From: a virus
IMG/VR virus record: IMGVR_UViG_3300049157_000080
Coordinates: 1-20,632 of that record
DNA length: 20,632 nucleotides
Strand: one strand, 5' to 3'
Positions 5,001 through 15,902 of the stretch are shown here, piece after piece (the stretch's first letter is position 1; each line of letters begins with the position of its first letter). Under the pieces are notes generated by a model. It was not told the DNA's origin, made no database searches, and worked only from the letters and a program-made list of their open reading frames with translations. A program made the position numbers and the translations under genes.

Positions 5001-5661
5001 GTCCGGGGGGCAGCTGTACAGTCACCTGTGTCGTTGTCAGGCTGCCAGTAACAATAGTCGCCCCAGATGGCAGCGTCCAAGCCACTGCCTGAATGCCAGT
5101 GACGCCCCCCCACCAAAAAAAGGACGCACTGGCATCAAAAGTGTGCACGTGAACCCCTTGCTCATCAGCATCAAAACGGTGGTGGTCACCAAAGTTAACC
5201 ACCGGGTAGGGCTGAGCACCACTGCCATCGTAGCGCACATCCCAAGCTTTAAAAGCTTCCTGGGCTGTGGCCCGGCTGATATAGCCATAAAGGGGGCGGT
5301 GTTTGTACACCCGCAGCGTGTCGCCCGCCGCCACATCCTGTGCATTGCCGGTAGCGATGCCGGCGTCCCCGCGTGACTTCACGTCTGGGTAGAAGTGCGT
5401 ACTGTTACTCGCTTTGCGCTGTACGCCCCACACCTTGATCTTGCCGGTAGCGGGATCTTCAACAGAAAAAGCGCGACCAATGCCGGTATTAGCCCAGTCG
5501 ACGGTGGCTATGACTTCAATTTCGGTCGTCGGTATGGCGGGTGTATGAGCGACGGTGGCACGCGCAACACTCTGCAAGGGTGCTAATTCAAGCACCGGCT
5601 CACAAATGATATGCTTAGCGCCACGCGCTTTAAGGATATCAGGTGGACTGGTGACACTCAT
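2020..5661 (-). CDS. large tail hub/tip protein with a PKD-like domain
   Basis: A 1213-residue protein, the largest in the window. Residues about 155-245 look like an immunoglobulin-fold PKD domain: a DASAS-type strand, WTLPSGA, a Thr/Val-rich strand, then GRHEIKCQVTANNG before a closing aromatic strand. Residues about 250-480 (including FVGYLTDIESTG) resemble the hub region of phage baseplate proteins, though no enzymatic motif stands out. The C-terminal half (about 640-1190) has recurring Trp-rich strands and Asp/Ser turns such as SENNGTSWQALKHT near 1150, reminiscent of sialidase-type (BNR) beta-propeller blades; fold and ligand are unproven. Position after the tape measure and the Dit-position gene fits the tail-associated lysin/hub slot, but I see no peptidase or muramidase signature. 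The ATG overlaps the upstream TGA. Confidence 0.75.
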   Translation of the reverse strand: MSVTSPPDILKARGAKHIICEPVLELAPLQSVARATVAHTPAIPTTEIEVIATVDWANTGIGRAFSVEDPATGKIKVWGVQRKASNSTHFYPDVKSRGDAGIATGNAQDVAAGDTLRVYKHRPLYGYISRATAQEAFKAWDVRYDGSGAQPYPVVNFGDHHRFDADEQGVHVHTFDASASFFWWGGVTGIQAVAWTLPSGATIVTGSLTTTQVTVQLPPGRHEIKCQVTANNGQVASGYRWVFVNSRDVNSADAAFSSRHPVTEITSDEETRRGRRMTFTVRGDCRAELYPGVLCVFTYPLLYDGEAMTEGTQTGKFVGYLTDIESTGTPASNSVTVSFVSPLLYMDQVPSATQLIEETCYPADWTQVVPGLSVPAYVVFYLLFYHTPFVINHDYKPTGAMWKRRQVYGFHQTTIGSQLTFLEQMAGVQINCTAGGALLAHAIPEYGEPSQRAQLDLKYIWTERDLAGAITLTPRLRPEVASVTRDGIAFNGATVETYRSTAPGLAQLQGLSKADETDIILQVRDALGRSAQAQLDAFVGHDLAHKNNPLESVQLNATQMLDLWSPADPDWHRLDVPDSYLSFDPDRFALDWAALRFRPQAVSRAWQNIEGRGIFVFTEHCNARFETVGKPGRELTVATINNNASFKPNIVDQPVPDAMAATLAFRVNHAGRMGVSTDFNEVDPAWQSLDNGLPGRVLWACFDHAGGTPKRLYVVTWQRDDISIKLHTSSDITQAPPTWTEIWTQAVSSSFAGKLTMATYRPSRVVVAWVEHDGIHVRRVYAEAEVVPGTHPGVYVTRETEIGLTADTAFIHVSGLTEEGQYKLYFSPFDGTDWTAVDTLPAPNHSSRSPLPMIHYNEMRTFTVIDRLNTTARKEETFIFRQSNSSRLPVSDHTLVRSSADVPVDRYFAWTQATQNVLYGVQTRLIPHDARDKGQTFRLSALQFKPDIFTRYHGAEGDPPGNAGTPAFFPPSEWYRTAMVIQVTLYGTCRVLYTASREVDNLFLDDGYSIFYAPSRRNFSHVFLKTMPELNLTFDPLLDGVKSIEFSLRAKNTRNFGRGSYTSFGSHPVAVFELSIGHQQMTLVNRVNDGQRLVFTRGKAWGDITPPQGVPAHPQGLAAEGSMLVCVATHPETGRRQLVHSENNGTSWQALKHTSSYHFVRHIENGILLAGGERSLDVSSDLFVTKHNRLARWGGQLGARGTTRIADGKVVSS

Positions 5662-6110
5662 GGGGCCTCTCTTTTCACAACAAATGCAATGGTGTAGATG
5701 CTAAACCCACTGCGGTACCCTATCTCACCCTGTTCCTGGGGCATGCCTAAACTGCCTACGCAGTGCAGGATACGCCAGCTGCCGAAGCGATCCCAGGTTT
5801 CAACTGTGAAAGCGTCGATGGCATTGTTATCGAAAATCGTGGCACGCAAATAGCCCGCCATGGCAGGCGTCAATCCTGCCAGGCGAAAATCGAAACTGCC
5901 CTGCCCTTGCGGGCTACCATGACCATCCAGCCCACGCGGCAACTGAGCATACGCTTGGAAAATGCGCCCGCCATCAACTGGCGGTTTCCATTTGTGCCAA
6001 GTCTGATCAACCTGGCGCGGCCAGTTAACAATCGCGTCTTGCTGCGTCAAGGTCGCCGCTGGGTGATAGCCGCGTTTGAGTTTGTGGTTGCTTGTATGGT
6101 GAGCATTCAT
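5658..6110 (-). CDS. tail-tip protein in the distal tail (Dit) position
   Basis: A 150-residue protein beginning within the end of the tape measure gene (ATGA overlap) and ending with an ATGA overlap into the hub gene. In siphophages the gene directly after the tape measure usually encodes the distal tail protein or a minor tail protein at the tube-hub junction. This one is shorter than a full two-domain Dit and could be only the tube-like N-terminal domain or a gpM/gpL-type minor tail protein. Aromatic- and Gly-rich beta-type sequence dominates (for example ETWDRFGSWRILHCVGSLG, about residues 103-121). No catalytic motif is visible. The role is assigned by position; confidence that the gene is real is high. 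Confidence 0.7.
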   Translation of the reverse strand: MNAHHTSNHKLKRGYHPAATLTQQDAIVNWPRQVDQTWHKWKPPVDGGRIFQAYAQLPRGLDGHGSPQGQGSFDFRLAGLTPAMAGYLRATIFDNNAIDAFTVETWDRFGSWRILHCVGSLGMPQEQGEIGYRSGFSIYTIAFVVKREAP

Positions 6111-9100
6111 GCCGTGTTTCTGCCTTTCTTGGCTGCGGCTATGCCCCGGTTTTGTGCTGCGATGGCTTGCAGAATAGCCTCGCGTACATCTGCTTCGGTG
6201 ATGGTCGTACTAGCTGCAAAAGCCCCGGCTTCAAAGGTGATGTTGTAGCTGGGGGCTGCCTGCAAGCTAGGCATAACTTGCTGCAAGCTGCGGCTGTTGA
6301 GTGGCAGTACCAGCTCAGCATAATCGCGATCGGCTTCGAATTCTGCCAAGATCTGCGTATTGGCCGGTACGATGCCGCCTTCAGCGAAGGGACGTAAGCG
6401 CTGGTTTTTCTTGTCACCGTGCACCCTTTGGCTGGCTGGCAATCGGTTGGATCTAATGGGTGTGCCTGACGTGGACTGGGCATGTTGTTGGTTGCTGCCC
6501 AGCTGGCTAGCGGCGGCGGCTAAGCTTTTCACCCCCGTTGCGGCTAGCTGGATAGCCTGTAGCTCAGCCTGGCCCTTGCTGGCGATGGCTTCTTTAGTAT
6601 CTGCCAACGCTGCCAGTTCGATGTCACGCTTGCTGGCGATCTCGCTCAGCTGCAGGTCGAGCGCCTCCTGGCGTCTGGCGTCCGCGATGCTTTCATCTTC
6701 TGCTTGGCGTGCGAGGCGCTTGTCACGCTGGGCCACTGCTTCGGCTTGTGATTCGCGCTCTGCTTGTACGCGCTCTGCGATACTGGATAGTTCTTCCTGC
6801 GTGCGCTCTGCCAGTGCTTGTTTGATTGACGCTTGCTCTTCTGCAAGTTGTGCCCTGATTTCAGACAAGCGCTCTTGACCATTCTCGCGCAATTGTGTGA
6901 TGCTGTCGCTGAGCTGCTGCCGGCGTTCTTGTTCTTCTTCGCTGAAATCTTCCAGGCGCCGGCTACTTTCTTTTTCGCTTTGGCGTTTTGCTTGTGTGAT
7001 CGACAGGATGTCGTTAGACAACTGCCCCGCCCATAGGCTCTCCTGTAGATCTTGCTGGGCACGGATGCGCTGTTTGTTGAAATCTTTTTCACGCTTGACA
7101 CTATCTGCTGCAAACTTTTCTTGCTGATCTGCAATGGTCTCTTGCATGTTTGCACGCAAGTCGATCTCATCTTTACGTGCTTTTTTGATCGCTGCGCTGG
7201 CGTCTGCTAGTGATTGCTGCTGCAGATCAGCTAAGCGTTGATTGCTCTCTTCCTGCATATCAGTGATGCGTGAGGCACTATCTGCAACAGTCTCCTGCCA
7301 GTCTTCCAGTTCGCGTGAAGAAGCTAGTGAGCGGTCTTCGCTTTGCAGCGTCATCTGGCGGTCATAACTCGTAAGTAGCTTTTCTTGCTGGCTGTTGAGG
7401 TTGGCGATGGCTTGTTTGGTTTGGTCGATCTTCCGGCGACGCTCTTGCTCAACTTGAGTAGCTGCATCGCTGACAGAAGTTGTATCTTGGGTGGCTTTTG
7501 CTTTTTTCTCTTCCGCTTCAACGAGCTTACGAGCGGCCTCTACATTGGGCGCGAGGCCGTGTTCGACCAGTTCTTCTAGCATTGTCGTCAACGTCTTCTC
7601 AGCTTGGGTAGCGGTGTCCATCGCATCATTTAATTTGTCTTTGTTGTTTTTTAGTTTATTTTCTGCCTCTGAAACGGTGAATTCATCCCAAAGGCCAGCC
7701 CAGCCGATCTTGTTGTTTTCTTCTTCAACTGCTTTGCGTGCTTGCTCAGTGATTTTTAAATGATCACTGAGGACTACATGCGCCTTCGTCACCTCATCAA
7801 TCGCAGAGGCGGCTACACGAAAAGCTTCGCTGGTGTCGCCTTTCGCCAAGGCAAGGGTGATATTGGCTGACTCTTTAATGGCTTGCGCTTGTTGTTCGAC
7901 TGCTTTTTTTGCTGCCTTGGCAGCAGCACGCGTGCTTGCCGTTAACTCATGAAAAGCAAGCCCCGCCCCGACAGCAACTGCTGCAACCGCTGCAAGCGGT
8001 ACGGCAATGGCTGCTACTGTTGCCCCCGTAGCCCCTAGGGCAGGCACGAGGGCAGCAAACCCTCCTGCTAAATTAGTGACAAAATTCTTAATAGCAACGT
8101 TGCCTTGGGCCAGCTTGCCGCCCATAACCACCGCGCTCTCACCCAGCAAGCCCACCTGTTCGGTGACGGCCGCCACATCTCCCAGGCTGCGCAGTTGATC
8201 CCCAGCGACACCTCCCAAAGCCCCACTGAAAGTTTGCAAGGCCGTATCAACATCACCGAAGCCAGCGAAGCGTTTCTGGGCACTACTACGTCCTACGTCG
8301 TAAGATAGCGATGCTGAATTAGATATCTCGCGTTCTTTTTCTTCTGCTTGTGCGATTTTTTTAATTGAGCGCAAACGGTCGGTCTCAGCTTTATCGTTCG
8401 CCTTTTTTACTGCTGCCACCTTTTTATCAAGCGCCTTTTTTTCATCCCTTGTGATTTTCACAAGCGCCTTTTTTTCGGCTCTTTGCCTGCGCTCAACTCC
8501 CTCAAGTTCTGCCTTGGTGATTTTTTTGACCAGCCGCTCTCGTTTTAGCCCGCCCTCTTCGAATGCTTGCGGGATGGTTTTAATCTGTTTTGAAAGCGAA
8601 CTGTATTCTTTTGTCAGCGCCGCTACGTACTTTTGCTGAGCAACCAGTTCTTCCCCCTGCAACCCTTCCAGCCCAGCTTCAGCTTGATCTAATTGCTTTT
8701 TGGCTTGCTCGGCTCTGTCGCCCAGTCTGACCAATTCACCCGCTACCAGTTGAATGTCATCAGCATCGAACTGCCCAGATTTAGCCAATCCAGCAAACTG
8801 CTTAGCAGCCTGCTTTAAAGAGTCTTGCAAAGGGTCAAACGACGACACAACAGTATCCGCAAGCGTGGCCATCTTCTTTAGCCCAGCTTCTGCTGGTGAT
8901 GTGTCCACTTCAATCGTCTGTTGAAGGGGCTGCGCCTTAGGACTACTGGCGGCCGCTTTGACGCTATTATCAACAGGCTTGATTTGTGAAAGTTCCTGTT
9001 GCGCCTGGCCTGCGTTGCTGGCCAGCTTGTTCACTTCACTGGCTGCCCGTTTGATGCTGGAAACATCCAGTTGCCCCGCCTTATCTAGTGCGACAAATTG

Positions 9101-9253
9101 CCCTGTTGATTGTCGCAATGAAGGCACCAGCTTGCTAAACGATGCAGCCACAGCCGCGATTGAATCGTCAATACTACCGATAGCCATACGTGTCTCGGCA
9201 ATGGACTGCTTGTCTGGTTTTATAGTTAAAGTGATTTCAATCGTTCTGGCCAT
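6107..9253 (-). CDS. tail tape measure protein
   Basis: A 1048-residue protein that sets tail length and occupies the tube lumen until DNA ejection. Seen in the sequence: N-terminus MARTIEITLTI, two copies of an about 54-residue unit at 38-91 and 138-191, a Lys/Glu-rich coiled coil at about 235-310, an Ala/Gly/Val-rich hydrophobic stretch at about 393-433 that could cross a membrane, long Gln/Glu/Arg coiled coils at about 610-930, and a C-terminal block with FAEGGIV and ELVLPLNSRS. That last pattern (AEGGIV...ELVLPL) is a familiar tape-measure signature. At about 0.15 nm per residue the tail would be near 157 nm. The ATG start is supported by the conserved-looking N-terminus, but its ribosome site lies 27 bases upstream with a hairpin between (see the regulatory entry). 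The stop overlaps the next gene. Confidence 0.93.
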   Translation of the reverse strand: MARTIEITLTIKPDKQSIAETRMAIGSIDDSIAAVAASFSKLVPSLRQSTGQFVALDKAGQLDVSSIKRAASEVNKLASNAGQAQQELSQIKPVDNSVKAAASSPKAQPLQQTIEVDTSPAEAGLKKMATLADTVVSSFDPLQDSLKQAAKQFAGLAKSGQFDADDIQLVAGELVRLGDRAEQAKKQLDQAEAGLEGLQGEELVAQQKYVAALTKEYSSLSKQIKTIPQAFEEGGLKRERLVKKITKAELEGVERRQRAEKKALVKITRDEKKALDKKVAAVKKANDKAETDRLRSIKKIAQAEEKEREISNSASLSYDVGRSSAQKRFAGFGDVDTALQTFSGALGGVAGDQLRSLGDVAAVTEQVGLLGESAVVMGGKLAQGNVAIKNFVTNLAGGFAALVPALGATGATVAAIAVPLAAVAAVAVGAGLAFHELTASTRAAAKAAKKAVEQQAQAIKESANITLALAKGDTSEAFRVAASAIDEVTKAHVVLSDHLKITEQARKAVEEENNKIGWAGLWDEFTVSEAENKLKNNKDKLNDAMDTATQAEKTLTTMLEELVEHGLAPNVEAARKLVEAEEKKAKATQDTTSVSDAATQVEQERRRKIDQTKQAIANLNSQQEKLLTSYDRQMTLQSEDRSLASSRELEDWQETVADSASRITDMQEESNQRLADLQQQSLADASAAIKKARKDEIDLRANMQETIADQQEKFAADSVKREKDFNKQRIRAQQDLQESLWAGQLSNDILSITQAKRQSEKESSRRLEDFSEEEQERRQQLSDSITQLRENGQERLSEIRAQLAEEQASIKQALAERTQEELSSIAERVQAERESQAEAVAQRDKRLARQAEDESIADARRQEALDLQLSEIASKRDIELAALADTKEAIASKGQAELQAIQLAATGVKSLAAAASQLGSNQQHAQSTSGTPIRSNRLPASQRVHGDKKNQRLRPFAEGGIVPANTQILAEFEADRDYAELVLPLNSRSLQQVMPSLQAAPSYNITFEAGAFAASTTITEADVREAILQAIAAQNRGIAAAKKGRNTA

Positions 9254-9258
9254 GAATT

Positions 9259-9280
9259 AAAAAACCCGCTTGTTAGCGGG
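9259..9280 (-). terminator. intrinsic terminator-like hairpin with T-tract before the tape measure start
   Basis: On the minus strand a 6-bp perfect stem, CCCGCT and AGCGGG around an AACA tetraloop (9280-9265), is followed at once by six T (9264-9259), then five bases and the tape measure ATG (9253-9251). Stem plus U-run is the classic Rho-independent layout. It lies after the membrane-protein gene (stop at 9311) and before the tape measure, so full termination would switch off the rest of the tail operon. Either it is partial or antiterminated, or its main role is in translation. Confidence 0.7.
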
Positions 9281-9287
9281 CCTCCTT
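9281..9287 (-). promoter_or_regulatory. ribosome binding site of the tape measure, separated from the ATG by a hairpin
   Basis: A full AAGGAGG directly abuts the 5' base of the hairpin at 9280-9265. The linear distance to the ATG is 27 bases, too far for normal initiation. If the 16-base hairpin folds, the remaining single-stranded distance is 11 bases, close to the usable range. No other purine-rich site lies between. A hairpin bridging Shine-Dalgarno site and start is known for phage T4 gene 38. The U-run could instead pair with the AAGGAGG and hide it. Confidence 0.6.
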
Positions 9288-9310: not shown

Positions 9311-9712
9311 TTAAATATTTTGAGACAATTCAGCTTTATAATTATCAATTATTTTCTTTCTTAAAGCGTGGTACCTATCTTCACCAATCTCGCCAGTGTC
9401 CAGCATTCCCTTCACTTTCTTGAGGCGTTGTTGTGCTTTAGCTTTTTCAGTCAGTTCAGTTGACTGTGCTGTGGGAGGACTATCGAGGATTATTTTGTGA
9501 GCACCAAAGGAATAGGCTAAGAACAAAACAGAGGGGATGATTAGGCCCAGGCCTGCAAGACGCAACAGGGTGTTGTTGTCTTTACATTCGCGCATTAATT
9601 CGTCATGCCCAATAAAATTACAATCATCAAGAAAGCTACCAGCACCCAAGGTTAACCCAAACAACAGCACAATAACCGCAATCGTTCTGCGCGCAAGCTT
9701 TTTATTGGTCAT
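9311..9712 (-). CDS. small two-helix membrane protein with SHOCT-like C-terminus
   Basis: A 133-residue protein. It has a positive N-terminus (KKLARR), a hydrophobic helix at about 10-26, a loop with Cys31 and Cys43, a second hydrophobic helix at about 52-69, and a charged cytoplasmic-looking tail. Residues 96-125 (LKKVKGMLDTGEIGEDRYHALRKK at their core) match the pattern of SHOCT domains, short C-terminal oligomerisation segments: hydrophobic residue, Leu, acidic-Gly-x-Ile, then a basic helix. The positive-inside rule puts both termini in the cytoplasm and the two Cys outside. The ATG has a good ribosome site (TAGGAGG, about 9 bases upstream). A membrane protein between tail chaperones and tape measure is out of place for a virion part; it could be a moron or superinfection-exclusion protein. 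The gene looks more A/T-rich than its neighbours. Confidence 0.75.
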   Translation of the reverse strand: MTNKKLARRTIAVIVLLFGLTLGAGSFLDDCNFIGHDELMRECKDNNTLLRLAGLGLIIPSVLFLAYSFGAHKIILDSPPTAQSTELTEKAKAQQRLKKVKGMLDTGEIGEDRYHALRKKIIDNYKAELSQNI

Positions 9713-9739
9713 CGATCACTGCCTCCTAATACATACCGC

Positions 9740-9754
9740 CGCCAGCCAGCCAGT
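9740..9754. repeat. 15-base direct repeat, copy 1
   Basis: CGCCAGCCAGCCAGT on the plus strand, identical to 9811-9825. This copy lies just upstream (in minus-strand terms) of the ribosome site of the membrane-protein gene. It is itself built of CCAG tetramers, so it could have arisen by slippage. Confidence 0.8.
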
Positions 9755-9808
9755 GCACTAAGCACCGCCCACCCCGCCATGTAGCAGGGCAAATGGTGTT
9801 TAGTGTAC
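9753..9808. repeat. intergenic inverted repeat with 14-base arms
   Basis: Arms GTGCACTAAGCACC (9753-9766) and GGTGTTTAGTGTAC (9795-9808) pair at 12 of 14 positions, and the two mismatches are G/T. In plus-strand RNA both become G-U pairs, giving an unbroken 14-bp stem; in minus-strand RNA they are C-A mismatches. An inner GCCC/GGGC (9767-9770 with 9787-9790) can extend the stem. It has no U-run, so it does not look like a simple terminator. It is bracketed by the direct repeats at 9740-9754 and 9811-9825. Confidence 0.6.
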
Positions 9809-9810
9809 CT

Positions 9811-9825
9811 CGCCAGCCAGCCAGT
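9811..9825. repeat. 15-base direct repeat, copy 2
   Basis: CGCCAGCCAGCCAGT, identical to 9740-9754. On the minus strand it begins at the last base of the TAA stop (9827-9825) of the second tail-chaperone frame and lies just upstream of the inverted repeat. Confidence 0.8.
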
Positions 9826-10076
9826 TAATGCCAAATCGCCAACTCGTCCTCATCCGGTCTTTGATCTTGTTCACGATACCATGCCACGAGGGCATCCAGT
9901 TGCTGAAAAGAACGCATGATATGGGGGTCTTGATCCAACGTGCCACCTGCTTCTGGCAGCAAGTTTTTGCTGCGATAATCTAGATATGCAGCGTAGATGA
10001 TCTCTGGTGAGCACCAAATGCCCCAGCCAGCTTTGTTCTCGATGTCAGCTGCTTCCGACTTGCCTAATTCAGCCAT
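9825..10076 (-). CDS. tail assembly chaperone, downstream (T-like) frame
   Basis: An 83-residue frame from the ATG at 10076, but the same frame is open further upstream to 10142 (22 more codons, including RRQVEQAGLADFARRIA). There is no Shine-Dalgarno site before the ATG. It lies in the -1 frame relative to the preceding gene and overlaps its end. This is the arrangement of lambda G/GT and of most siphophage tail chaperones, where a programmed -1 frameshift makes a minor fusion protein that helps the tape measure and tube assemble. A slip at about 10141 would give a fusion of about 236 residues. Residues include GIWCSPEIIYAAYLDYRS. Independent initiation by reinitiation after the TAG at 10102-10100 is the alternative. 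Confidence 0.65.
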   Translation of the reverse strand: MAELGKSEAADIENKAGWGIWCSPEIIYAAYLDYRSKNLLPEAGGTLDQDPHIMRSFQQLDALVAWYREQDQRPDEDELAIWH

Positions 10077-13065: not shown

Positions 13066-13569
13066 TTAATAGAAAGCTTCAACTAAATCCCCCCATGATG
13101 CTTCAATCTCATCCTCAATCGCTGCACCTATATGCTCAACCTCATCAATCACCACCGGCCAGCCAGTGATACGGTGACCGGGGATTTGCTCATACGTATC
13201 ACTACCGTACACATATGAGCTGCCCTTAGCCGGGTGCGCCACCTGCAATATGATCACCCCGTCCTGCAAGAGCGTATCTAGCTGCCATGACTTCGCCATC
13301 TTGCCGGTGCGTGTATACCCTTCTGGGTAGTGTGCGAAGAACCAACGTCGTGCGCGTGCGTTGGCGGCGGCATGGGTTGACCATACAAAATGTGGACTGG
13401 ATGGCGAGCGGCGTGGGGGTTCTCGCCGCAAGCGACGATCCAACTGGCGCTCTAGCGGTGGCAAAATCTTACGGCTCAGGTGCCTGAGTACTTTCTTGGG
13501 TAGCTGTTTTTCCAGAGCAAGCAGGCCAGCGCCTAACTGCCGGGATGTACTTAGCTCGAATTTGATCAT
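13066..13569 (-). CDS. HK97 gp10-like head-tail joining / tail component protein
   Basis: A 167-residue protein starting in the stop of the capsid gene (ATGA overlap). It has a helical basic N-terminus, YTRTGKMAKSWQL near 90-102, and VYGSDTYEQIPGH near 120-132, after which comes a beta segment. The helix, Gly-x-Leu/Met-x-x-Ser and short beta pattern is reminiscent of the HK97 gp10 family (minor tail/head-closure proteins), which in many siphophages lies between capsid and tube genes. It follows the capsid directly here, earlier than in HK97. No enzymatic motif. Family assignment moderate. Confidence 0.6.
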   Translation of the reverse strand: MIKFELSTSRQLGAGLLALEKQLPKKVLRHLSRKILPPLERQLDRRLRREPPRRSPSSPHFVWSTHAAANARARRWFFAHYPEGYTRTGKMAKSWQLDTLLQDGVIILQVAHPAKGSSYVYGSDTYEQIPGHRITGWPVVIDEVEHIGAAIEDEIEASWGDLVEAFY

Positions 13570-15902
13570 GAAACTTTGATGTTGTAGCGGCCCACCGCGG
13601 CGTTGGCACCACGCGCCATAAAGGCATGACGCACTGAGGCTACAAACACGGTTGATCCACTGAGCGCATAACGCTCAGTCTCGATGGTGAGGGCACGCTT
13701 GCGTGCATACAGCCAATGCGGAGCGTACACGCAACTCAAGGTACCACGCGAGTTGGTCGCGGCAGTACTGCTCACCTTGCCCTTGGCATCTGTTAACTCC
13801 TGGAACCCTGATGCGTACCAATTGACATTAAACAACCGCGGGATGGTACCCGCGAACAATGTCGCACGACTGTCGCCCGCCACATCGACTGTCAGCAGTT
13901 CTGGCAACAAGCGCACTTTGCTTTCTACGTCGTGATCTGCGATGAAAAGCAAGGCGTCCCTACGTGTGCTAATTTCGGGTGGCAACATCTTAATGGTGGC
14001 TTCTAGGTCGCCAGCCTTGATCTCTGCATTGCCATGGTCTTTGCTTTGAGCAGTGTAATCAATCAAGTAATGCTTGCGTATACCATCGAAAGCCAAATAG
14101 GAAGGTGCGCTTAGACCGCTGCCAGGGGTACCATTGATCAGGTTGATATTCTTGTTAGCACCTCTCTCAGTGTCCCCATTGAGCATGCTGTTCTCAATGG
14201 TCTCAGCAAAGATACGCGGAATCTCGGCTTGCATGTGCTGAGCTAGATTGATGATGCTATCCTCGTCGAGCTGATAAGTATGTGCAGTCGCCAGTACATG
14301 CTCCTGTGCCTCGACCTCCATTTCTCTGGTGCCGGAGGGTGTGATTTGGGCAGTGACTTCTGGCCGGCCGGTGCTATCTAAATTTCGTGCTTCACTGCGT
14401 GTGAATACCGTGGGGGTGCCGGTCATGATCTTAACGTTAACGGAGCGACTACCAGCGGGAATGTCAACCATGCGCATGCCCTTAGCGCTCAGGATATTCA
14501 GCAGTTCAGTCTGATGATAGACCGTTTCCCATACCTGGGTATCGTGATAGACCCCTGCAAACTCTGCACCCTGGCTTGCGATTGCAACTGCGTTGAGTTC
14601 ATCTGCCCGGAAGGGCAAGGCACTTCTCAACGCATACGTGTCGGTCGTGATCGAACTGGGTGTGTTTAGTGTGGGCACAGCTTTGTGCAAAAACGTGCGC
14701 ACAAAATCATCGCTGATACCATGCTCTTCTAGCTGACCAAATGTTACCCTGCTGCGTTCGTGTTCAGGCACACTACCTACCACCACTAGCTTAATAGCCA
14801 GGGCCATCTCCTGCGGGCTGACATGTGCGTACTTCATGTTCTCACTGACACTGATATGACCATTGCCAGCCGAGGCAGCTGCTCCGACAGTGTTTTTGGG
14901 GTTGACCAAGGGGATGTTACCCATCTGGTTGAGGGCGTTGTTGATGGTTGCAGCGCGTGAATTGTGCGCTGCCTGGCGCGCATTGTTGACCGCTGTGAAC
15001 CCCGCTGCTAACAGGGTGCTGAAATTTTCCGCGATCGCACTACGTACCTCTTCAGCTGTCTCAGCTGAGGGGGCGTTATCCTGCTCAAACAAAGCTTCTG
15101 CTTGTTCAGTGATCTCTTCTCTTAGTTGTTCTTGTTCTTGCTCGTCCAGCGCTTGTTCGCTGTTTGCAGCGTTTAACTCTTGTATGTATGCTGCGATCTC
15201 TTCTCTGATCAGTTCGACCAGCTCTTGCATTTCCATCTCTTCCTCTCCTTTTGTGTCTGATTTGTTTTTCAATTTAGCACCTTCGTGGTGCCCAGCATCC
15301 TTGTCGTCGTCGCTACTAGCTACTTCTCTAGCCTCGTCAGGCTCTCTAAACAGCTGTATTGCCATCGGTTTAAGTGTGCTAATACGTGTGCCGGCGGGGG
15401 CTGCTGGCGTGGGCGTCAGTGATCCCTCGATTATGGGCCAGCGCTTAATATGCCCGTCGTCGTCTATTTGTATGCCCTTTGGCAAGGCCCCCGACGACCA
15501 TGCCAGATGGCCCTCATCAATCAATTTGTCCAGCATGTCTTGATAGCGCTGTGCTATCTCTAGTTGTTTTTGCTTCCAGCTGTCAGGGTCTTCTAAGGTT
15601 TTCACCCAGGCAGCGTAATGGCTTGTAAACCTGTTCTGGGCTTCCACCCAGATGCCGTCCTTACTTTTATGTGCCTTGTCGATGATGGCGATGGGAACAG
15701 CATGCAAGCTGTCATCATCTCCGTGCTGATAAAGCACATTGATACCCTTTATCGGGTACGACGACAGCACAAAATCTGTCTCACTATTGAAGTATTCACC
15801 ATGCAAATCAGGATGTCCCCGATCGGTGAACCGGACTAAAAAACCGCCGAAGCGGTTATCTGACAATCTTTTGATTGACGTGCCTGTATGTTTTGTTTTC
15901 AT
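13566..15902 (-). CDS. head maturation protease, scaffold and HK97-fold major capsid in one polypeptide
   Basis: A 778-residue protein. Residues about 15-175 look like a prohead protease of the HK97/S78 type: His60 in LYQHG, Ser136/137 in LAWSSGALP, and an IIEGSLTPTPA strand (158-168) of the kind that ends the catalytic core. Residues about 180-220 are a charged linker. About 223-320 is a Glu/Gln-rich helical segment suited to a scaffold (delta-like) domain. About 350-778 fits a major capsid protein of HK97 fold. In HK97 the protease is a separate gene; here it is fused in frame. The ATG has a fair AAGGA ribosome site 6 bases away. A second strong site lies inside at M223 (see next entry). 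The stop overlaps the next gene (ATGA). The protease presumably cuts itself and the scaffold away during maturation. Confidence 0.85.
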   Translation of the reverse strand: MKTKHTGTSIKRLSDNRFGGFLVRFTDRGHPDLHGEYFNSETDFVLSSYPIKGINVLYQHGDDDSLHAVPIAIIDKAHKSKDGIWVEAQNRFTSHYAAWVKTLEDPDSWKQKQLEIAQRYQDMLDKLIDEGHLAWSSGALPKGIQIDDDGHIKRWPIIEGSLTPTPAAPAGTRISTLKPMAIQLFREPDEAREVASSDDDKDAGHHEGAKLKNKSDTKGEEEMEMQELVELIREEIAAYIQELNAANSEQALDEQEQEQLREEITEQAEALFEQDNAPSAETAEEVRSAIAENFSTLLAAGFTAVNNARQAAHNSRAATINNALNQMGNIPLVNPKNTVGAAASAGNGHISVSENMKYAHVSPQEMALAIKLVVVGSVPEHERSRVTFGQLEEHGISDDFVRTFLHKAVPTLNTPSSITTDTYALRSALPFRADELNAVAIASQGAEFAGVYHDTQVWETVYHQTELLNILSAKGMRMVDIPAGSRSVNVKIMTGTPTVFTRSEARNLDSTGRPEVTAQITPSGTREMEVEAQEHVLATAHTYQLDEDSIINLAQHMQAEIPRIFAETIENSMLNGDTERGANKNINLINGTPGSGLSAPSYLAFDGIRKHYLIDYTAQSKDHGNAEIKAGDLEATIKMLPPEISTRRDALLFIADHDVESKVRLLPELLTVDVAGDSRATLFAGTIPRLFNVNWYASGFQELTDAKGKVSSTAATNSRGTLSCVYAPHWLYARKRALTIETERYALSGSTVFVASVRHAFMARGANAAVGRYNIKVS
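15234..15250 (-). promoter_or_regulatory. internal ribosome site and ATG inside the protease-capsid gene
   Basis: On the minus strand AAGGAG (15250-15245) is followed by eight purine-rich bases and an in-frame ATG (15236-15234) coding Met223; a second in-frame ATG follows two codons later. Site strength and spacing are better than those of most annotated starts here. Initiation would give a 556-residue scaffold-capsid protein lacking the protease, the same logic as the nested Nu3 scaffold inside lambda gene C. The position exactly at the protease/scaffold border supports function over chance. Confidence 0.65.

Follow-up and report, generated by a model that had tools for sequence, protein, structure and literature searches.

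Split ribosome-binding sites and the leader of a probable tape measure gene

In phage T4, hairpins situated between the Shine-Dalgarno (SD) sequence and the start codon bring the two closer together, 22 nt becoming 5 in gene 38 and 27 nt becoming 11 in gene 25, and destabilization of these hairpins lowers initiation (PMC3014915). The split ribosome-binding site (RBS) of gene 25 has been described (Nivinskas, 1999; Malys and Nivinskas, 2009; reviewed in PMC3014915), and its geometry is confirmed by the T4 sequence.

The locus considered here belongs to an unclassified phage represented by an IMG/VR virus record, whose 20,632 bases were analyzed as a whole (the window). The late genes, including the terminase, portal (PF04860), capsid, and tail genes, are located on the minus strand. 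The large terminase is approximately 30% identical to its nearest records and the phage is distant from known phages; the tape measure candidate, the tail protein, and the capsid had almost no matches in phage records, IMG/VR, and GTDB. The capsid ORF (13566–15902, minus strand; 778 aa) is seemingly a fusion. Its N-terminal part, perhaps a prohead protease, shares about 30% identity with Salinibacter phage hypothetical proteins; a weak match to Phage_capsid follows downstream in the ORF. A terminator-like sequence, AACCGCTTCGGCGGTTTTTT, is localized inside the beginning of this gene (15857–15842, minus strand), 45 nt past its ATG.

The element of interest occupies 37 nt of the minus strand, from 9287 down to 9251. 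It consists of AAGGAGG (9281–9287), an adjoining perfect hairpin CCCGCT-AACA-AGCGGG (9265–9280), a U6 tract (9259–9264), the remaining spacer AATTC (9254–9258), and the ATG (9253–9251), directly preceded by an in-frame TAA. An earlier sequence-only reading had listed the same parts at these positions, with an SD-ATG spacing of 27 nt in the linear sequence and 11 nt with the hairpin folded, and both the coordinates and the counts proved correct. AAGGAGG matches the anti-SD over all seven nucleotides and is the sole good SD near the start; the AATTC spacer contains none. The 6-bp hairpin (-10.5 kcal/mol) lies wholly inside the gap between the SD and the ATG.

The downstream ORF (6107–9253, minus strand; 1048 aa) is a probable tape measure gene, judging by its position, length, a hydrophobic segment at residues ~398–438, and a weak match to the tape measure family phrog_1538 (E = 0.0032). 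Its start at ATG 9253 withstood a search for other in-frame starts with a good ribosome site, all of which have weak SDs only.

Such a combination is unlikely to arise by chance. On both strands of the window, no other perfect hairpin of at least 6 bp and at least five GC pairs precedes a T6 run, and none were found in 60 Markov-simulated windows. Of the perfect hairpins of this size on the minus strand, it alone is intergenic. Among 200,000 background 57-mers, 32 contained such a hairpin preceded by an SD-like motif, and none did so when T5 was added; AAGGAGG arose in 296 of 20,000 shuffled versions of the gap. The exact SD-hairpin pattern was not found elsewhere in IMG/VR; a looser pattern produced a single match, inside a coding sequence, which we took as chance.

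The sequence-only reading named T4 gene 38 as a close precedent. The likeness to a split RBS stands, and the closer precedent is gene 25, which shares with the window both the shortening from 27 to 11 nt and a hairpin of 6 bp with a 4-nt loop inside the SD-AUG gap. It differs in having a weaker SD (AAGAGG), a stem richer in A/U, and no U-tract, and it is not terminator-like. In gene 38, a hairpin between the SD and the AUG likewise raises translation (PMC3014915), but the distance changes from 22 to 5 nt, the loop is UUCG, and there is no long U-tract.

The stem as a probable terminator and the moron-like gene upstream

The hairpin has the appearance of an intrinsic terminator: a GC-rich stem (6 bp, 5 GC) with U6 directly after it, and a terminator d score of about 30. 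An automated terminator scan of the window does not list it, probably because a stem tolerant of G-U pairs absorbs the T-run. Bidirectional termination was rejected, since the plus-strand stem runs into CCUCCUU rather than into a U-tract. An Rfam search returned nothing at the gathering threshold; sub-threshold matches to the Trp and Phe leaders were judged to be chance, arising from the shared terminator shape.

The same stem and tail (CCCGCT-N4-AGCGGG-TTTTTT), CCCGCTNNNNAGCGGGTTTTTT, is present in at least 119 IMG/VR viral stretches, comprising at least 108 distinct contexts with the window included. With the window excluded, an ORF start is located within 50 nt of the terminator in at least 37 deduplicated junctions, and the PHROG assignments of the genes that follow include tape measures, sheath, major head, scaffold, tail fibers, and endolysin. 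Tape measures of several kinds are found after the stem, in loci L094 (HK97 type), L053, L100, L056, L051, L075, and L105. To judge from this distribution, the hairpin is a candidate terminator that recurs in phages immediately upstream of structural genes. In many loci (L036, L041, L080, L088, L090, L109, and others), sequences resembling one another, roughly (A/C)TGYCYGGAG, come after the U-tract and include the SD for the following gene, which looks like a repeated terminator-plus-RBS module.

The location of the SD sets the window apart from these junctions. A clear SD is situated between the U-tract and the start in 24 of the 37 junctions listed and upstream of the hairpin in none, and the window, with an SD energy of about -10.8 upstream of the hairpin and 0.0 downstream, is an exception. 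Since an SD upstream of the hairpin is found in no listed junction, AAGGAGG could be a purine run that arose by chance. The element would then be a terminator only, with a purine-rich flank that happens to extend the stem by pairing of AGGAGG with U6, and the tape measure would be translated weakly without a proper SD. The wide occurrence of the terminator agrees with this explanation, as does the fact that tape measures are needed in few copies. We nevertheless consider it unlikely: the shuffling and background frequencies given above make a full seven-nucleotide SD at this place improbable, and the flanks of the other terminators are rich in A/C, being SD-like in one of the 125 listed.

The closest counterpart by gene order is HK97, where an identical stem with the loop AUCA, annotated as a terminator, is located between the moron gene 15 and the tape measure gene H. 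As in the window, the stem CCCGCT/AGCGGG with its U-tract is found between the tail chaperone and the tape measure, and the gene before it is small and encodes a hydrophobic segment. Unlike in the window, the SD (GGGTGA) follows the U-tract and the start is 20 nt past the stem, and gp15 has no evident similarity to the 133-aa protein of the window. In lambda, T and H overlap and there is no such insert.

The 133-aa ORF upstream of the element (9311–9712, minus strand) encodes two hydrophobic segments and has a GC content of 0.415 and a GC3 of 0.41, the lowest among 19 genes, the others ranging from 0.468 to 0.55 in GC content. It is flanked by gaps of 112 and 57 nt, whereas most neighboring genes overlap or nearly touch. 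A compositional difference is accompanied by a terminator-type hairpin at the 3′ end, as in a moron. No homolog was found in phage records and no sigma70-like promoter site scoring at least 9/12 was found before the gene, although the sigma70 consensus may not be that of the host; hence, we call the gene moron-like rather than a moron. Its stop codon is located 30 nt 5′ of the hairpin. A terminator tested in E. coli was no longer repressed by ribosomes that had stopped at a distance of more than 27 nt upstream of it (PMC4824070), and the stop codon is therefore beyond the range of such repression.

The sequence-only reading had suggested that the terminator could reduce transcription into the tape measure gene. 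The terminator-like appearance is borne out by the recurrence of the same stem and U6 at many phage junctions, but the predicted terminator more plausibly serves to end transcription of the moron-like gene than to meter the tape measure mRNA.

The gap 5′ of the 133-aa ORF is filled by a long irregular hairpin (9736–9826, minus strand; -49.7 kcal/mol, z = -5.9) of 33 pairs, 10 of them G-U, the other strand being far weaker (-35.0). A stop codon immediately precedes it, a direct repeat of 15 nt, ACTGGCTGGCTGGCG, is contained in it, and it has no Rfam match. This hairpin forms the 5′ boundary of the moron-like unit and is a possible RNase III site or small RNA, with an uncertain relation to the element at 9251–9287. 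Further upstream, two small ORFs of 144 and 83 aa (10534–9825, minus strand) resemble a pair of tail assembly chaperones, although neither has a family match. The two frames are offset by -1 and share a short overlap that is open in both, and a programmed frameshift may join them.

Similar arrangements at HK97 gene 6 and T4 denA

We scanned approximately 1.63 Mb for an SD followed by a perfect hairpin and a start codon. The set comprised the IMG/VR loci and the genomes of T4, lambda, HK97, D3, N15, P22, Mu, T7, and P2, where T4 and HK97 were comparators retrieved for other reasons (gene 25 and the moron, respectively). When a run of at least four T was demanded after the stem, three distinct cases were found in this set plus the window, namely the window itself, HK97 gene 6, and T4 denA, compared to a mean of 0.09 and a maximum of one for 23 mock pairing rules; as the IMG/VR loci had been chosen for the terminator and not at random, and the window was given, this test is indicative rather than strict. 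Without the T requirement, the scan recovered T4 gene 25, which served as a positive control, and missed gene 38 because its stem holds a G-U pair. Two matches in D3, one in N15, and several in coding regions have no U-tract and are within the mock-pairing background.

At the HK97 gene 6 junction (5185–5219), GGAGG is followed by an annotated terminator hairpin, UUUU, AACGU, and AUG, so that folding shortens the spacing from 27 to 9 nt. As in the window, the SD pairs with the U-tract in the minimum free energy (MFE) structure. The stem, in contrast, is different, the gene is that of the head-tail adaptor following the major head gene, and the preceding stop codon is just 6 nt before the hairpin. 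In T4 denA (within the region 137300–138400 of NC_000866), which, unlike the tape measure, is a nuclease gene, AAGGAG, a hairpin, and UUUUAUU precede the AUG at 137927, and the spacing changes from 23 to 7 nt. The RefSeq start is 24 nt upstream of this AUG, inside the hairpin. The crystallized denA protein (PDB 2wsh) begins, after seven extra residues, at the Met of AUG 137927, which implies a split RBS in denA; the gene thus appears to be annotated 24 nt too far upstream. A literature search that mostly covered sources outside subscription journals returned no earlier description of the arrangement at either gene.

Both cases have relatives. The denA relatives in phages F2, PM2, Roth21, and ESCO47 retain an SD of the AGG type, the stem, and the AUG, with one stem position occupied by C-G, A-U, or G-C. 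In Serratia phage OS31, the SD, hairpin, and AUG of the HK97 gene 6 type are retained and the stem carries one compensatory change; the U-tract has been lost. With one covarying pair in each set and few sequences, these compensatory changes point to probable selection on the SD-hairpin-AUG arrangement itself, and its retention in OS31 after the loss of the U-tract favors a translational role.

Together with T4 gene 25, which also has no U-tract, the OS31 junction is consistent with an RBS-only explanation for the window, under which the hairpin persists for its role in translation and U6 acts solely as a spacer, no real termination taking place in vivo. The d score argues against this, and so does the wide recurrence of U6 directly after this GC-rich stem, a copy of which is labeled a terminator in the HK97 record; we regard such a purely translational element as quite unlikely.

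Folding of the leader and the proposed dual function

The MFE structure of the local segment contains 12 bp rather than 6, as AGGAGG pairs with UUUUUU (-18.3 kcal/mol, z = -3.1); stepwise energies descend from -10.5 kcal/mol for 6 bp to -15.9 kcal/mol for 12 bp. Only the local segment is unusual in this respect, the folding energy of a 111-nt stretch being ordinary (z = -0.5). The best rival fold is several kcal/mol weaker than the hairpin, and an antiterminator alternative was therefore rejected. The computed unpaired probability does not exceed 0.25 at six of the seven SD bases; hence, most of the time the free RNA keeps its SD closed. This refines the earlier claim that folding restores the spacing: the geometry is right, but the SD is not simply open, since the U-tract pairs with it and the ribosome must open it.

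The duplex between the SD and the anti-SD is worth about -10.7 kcal/mol and opening of the SD costs 8.4, leaving a net balance of -2.3 with the 6-bp stem kept. The same sum is -0.2 to -2.7 for T4 gene 25, +0.5 for T4 gene 38, -0.7 for HK97 gene 6, and -0.9 for T4 denA (all in kcal/mol). By this crude measure, the element is in line with the T4 genes and therefore as workable as the known cases, and displacement of the AGGAGG/U6 pairing is energetically affordable for the ribosome. The closed SD could also be a sign of a repressor-type switch, in which the 12-bp fold sequesters the SD and the tape measure is off until some factor or late conditions open it. Such a switch seems highly improbable, as the SD–anti-SD pairing outweighs the cost of opening, the SD is closed in the same way at HK97 gene 6 and T4 denA, and there is no competing upstream fold.

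On balance, we favor the interpretation that the element is a moron-type intrinsic terminator placed inside a split RBS of the T4 gene 25 type. Termination and the split site are both predictions from sequence and computed structure and, since no relative of the tape measure, tail protein, terminase, or capsid reaching this junction was found in IMG/VR, GTDB, or phage records from which conservation or covariation could be assessed, we infer the function at the window junction. The hidden SD in the free RNA and the lack of a sigma70-type promoter before the 133-aa gene, which would be expected of an independent moron, speak against this interpretation.

Under the favored interpretation, a polymerase transcribing the moron-like gene alone would stop at the U-tract, while late transcription, antiterminated or simply reading through, would continue into the tail genes. 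In the stopped transcripts, the U-tract would close the SD, so that ribosomes would not be recruited to an mRNA that has no start codon. On the read-through mRNA, the 30S subunit would bind AAGGAGG and displace the weak lower helix of AGGAGG and UUUUUU, while the GC-rich 6-bp stem would stay folded, leaving an effective SD-AUG distance of 11 nt, as in T4 gene 25. Such an element probably originated through the placement of a moron and its terminator just upstream of the tape measure gene, where the SD normally present after the U-tract either disappeared or did not form at all.

If this is true, two known things, a moron terminator before a structural gene and a T4-type split RBS, are joined in one 37-nt element. 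The examples of HK97 gene 6 and T4 denA suggest that the combination is not unique. More tentatively, terminator hairpins in split RBSs might constitute a distinct recurrent phage device, represented by HK97 gene 6, T4 denA, and the tape measure gene of the window. The U-tract of such a device would serve in termination, in closing the SD on stopped transcripts, and as a spacer upon read-through, so that ribosomes would be recruited by full-length mRNA only. As HK97 and T4 are both laboratory phages, the proposed dual role can be tested directly with standard E. coli systems. For genome annotation, start calling that demands an SD close by can put such starts in the wrong place, which seems to have happened with T4 denA.
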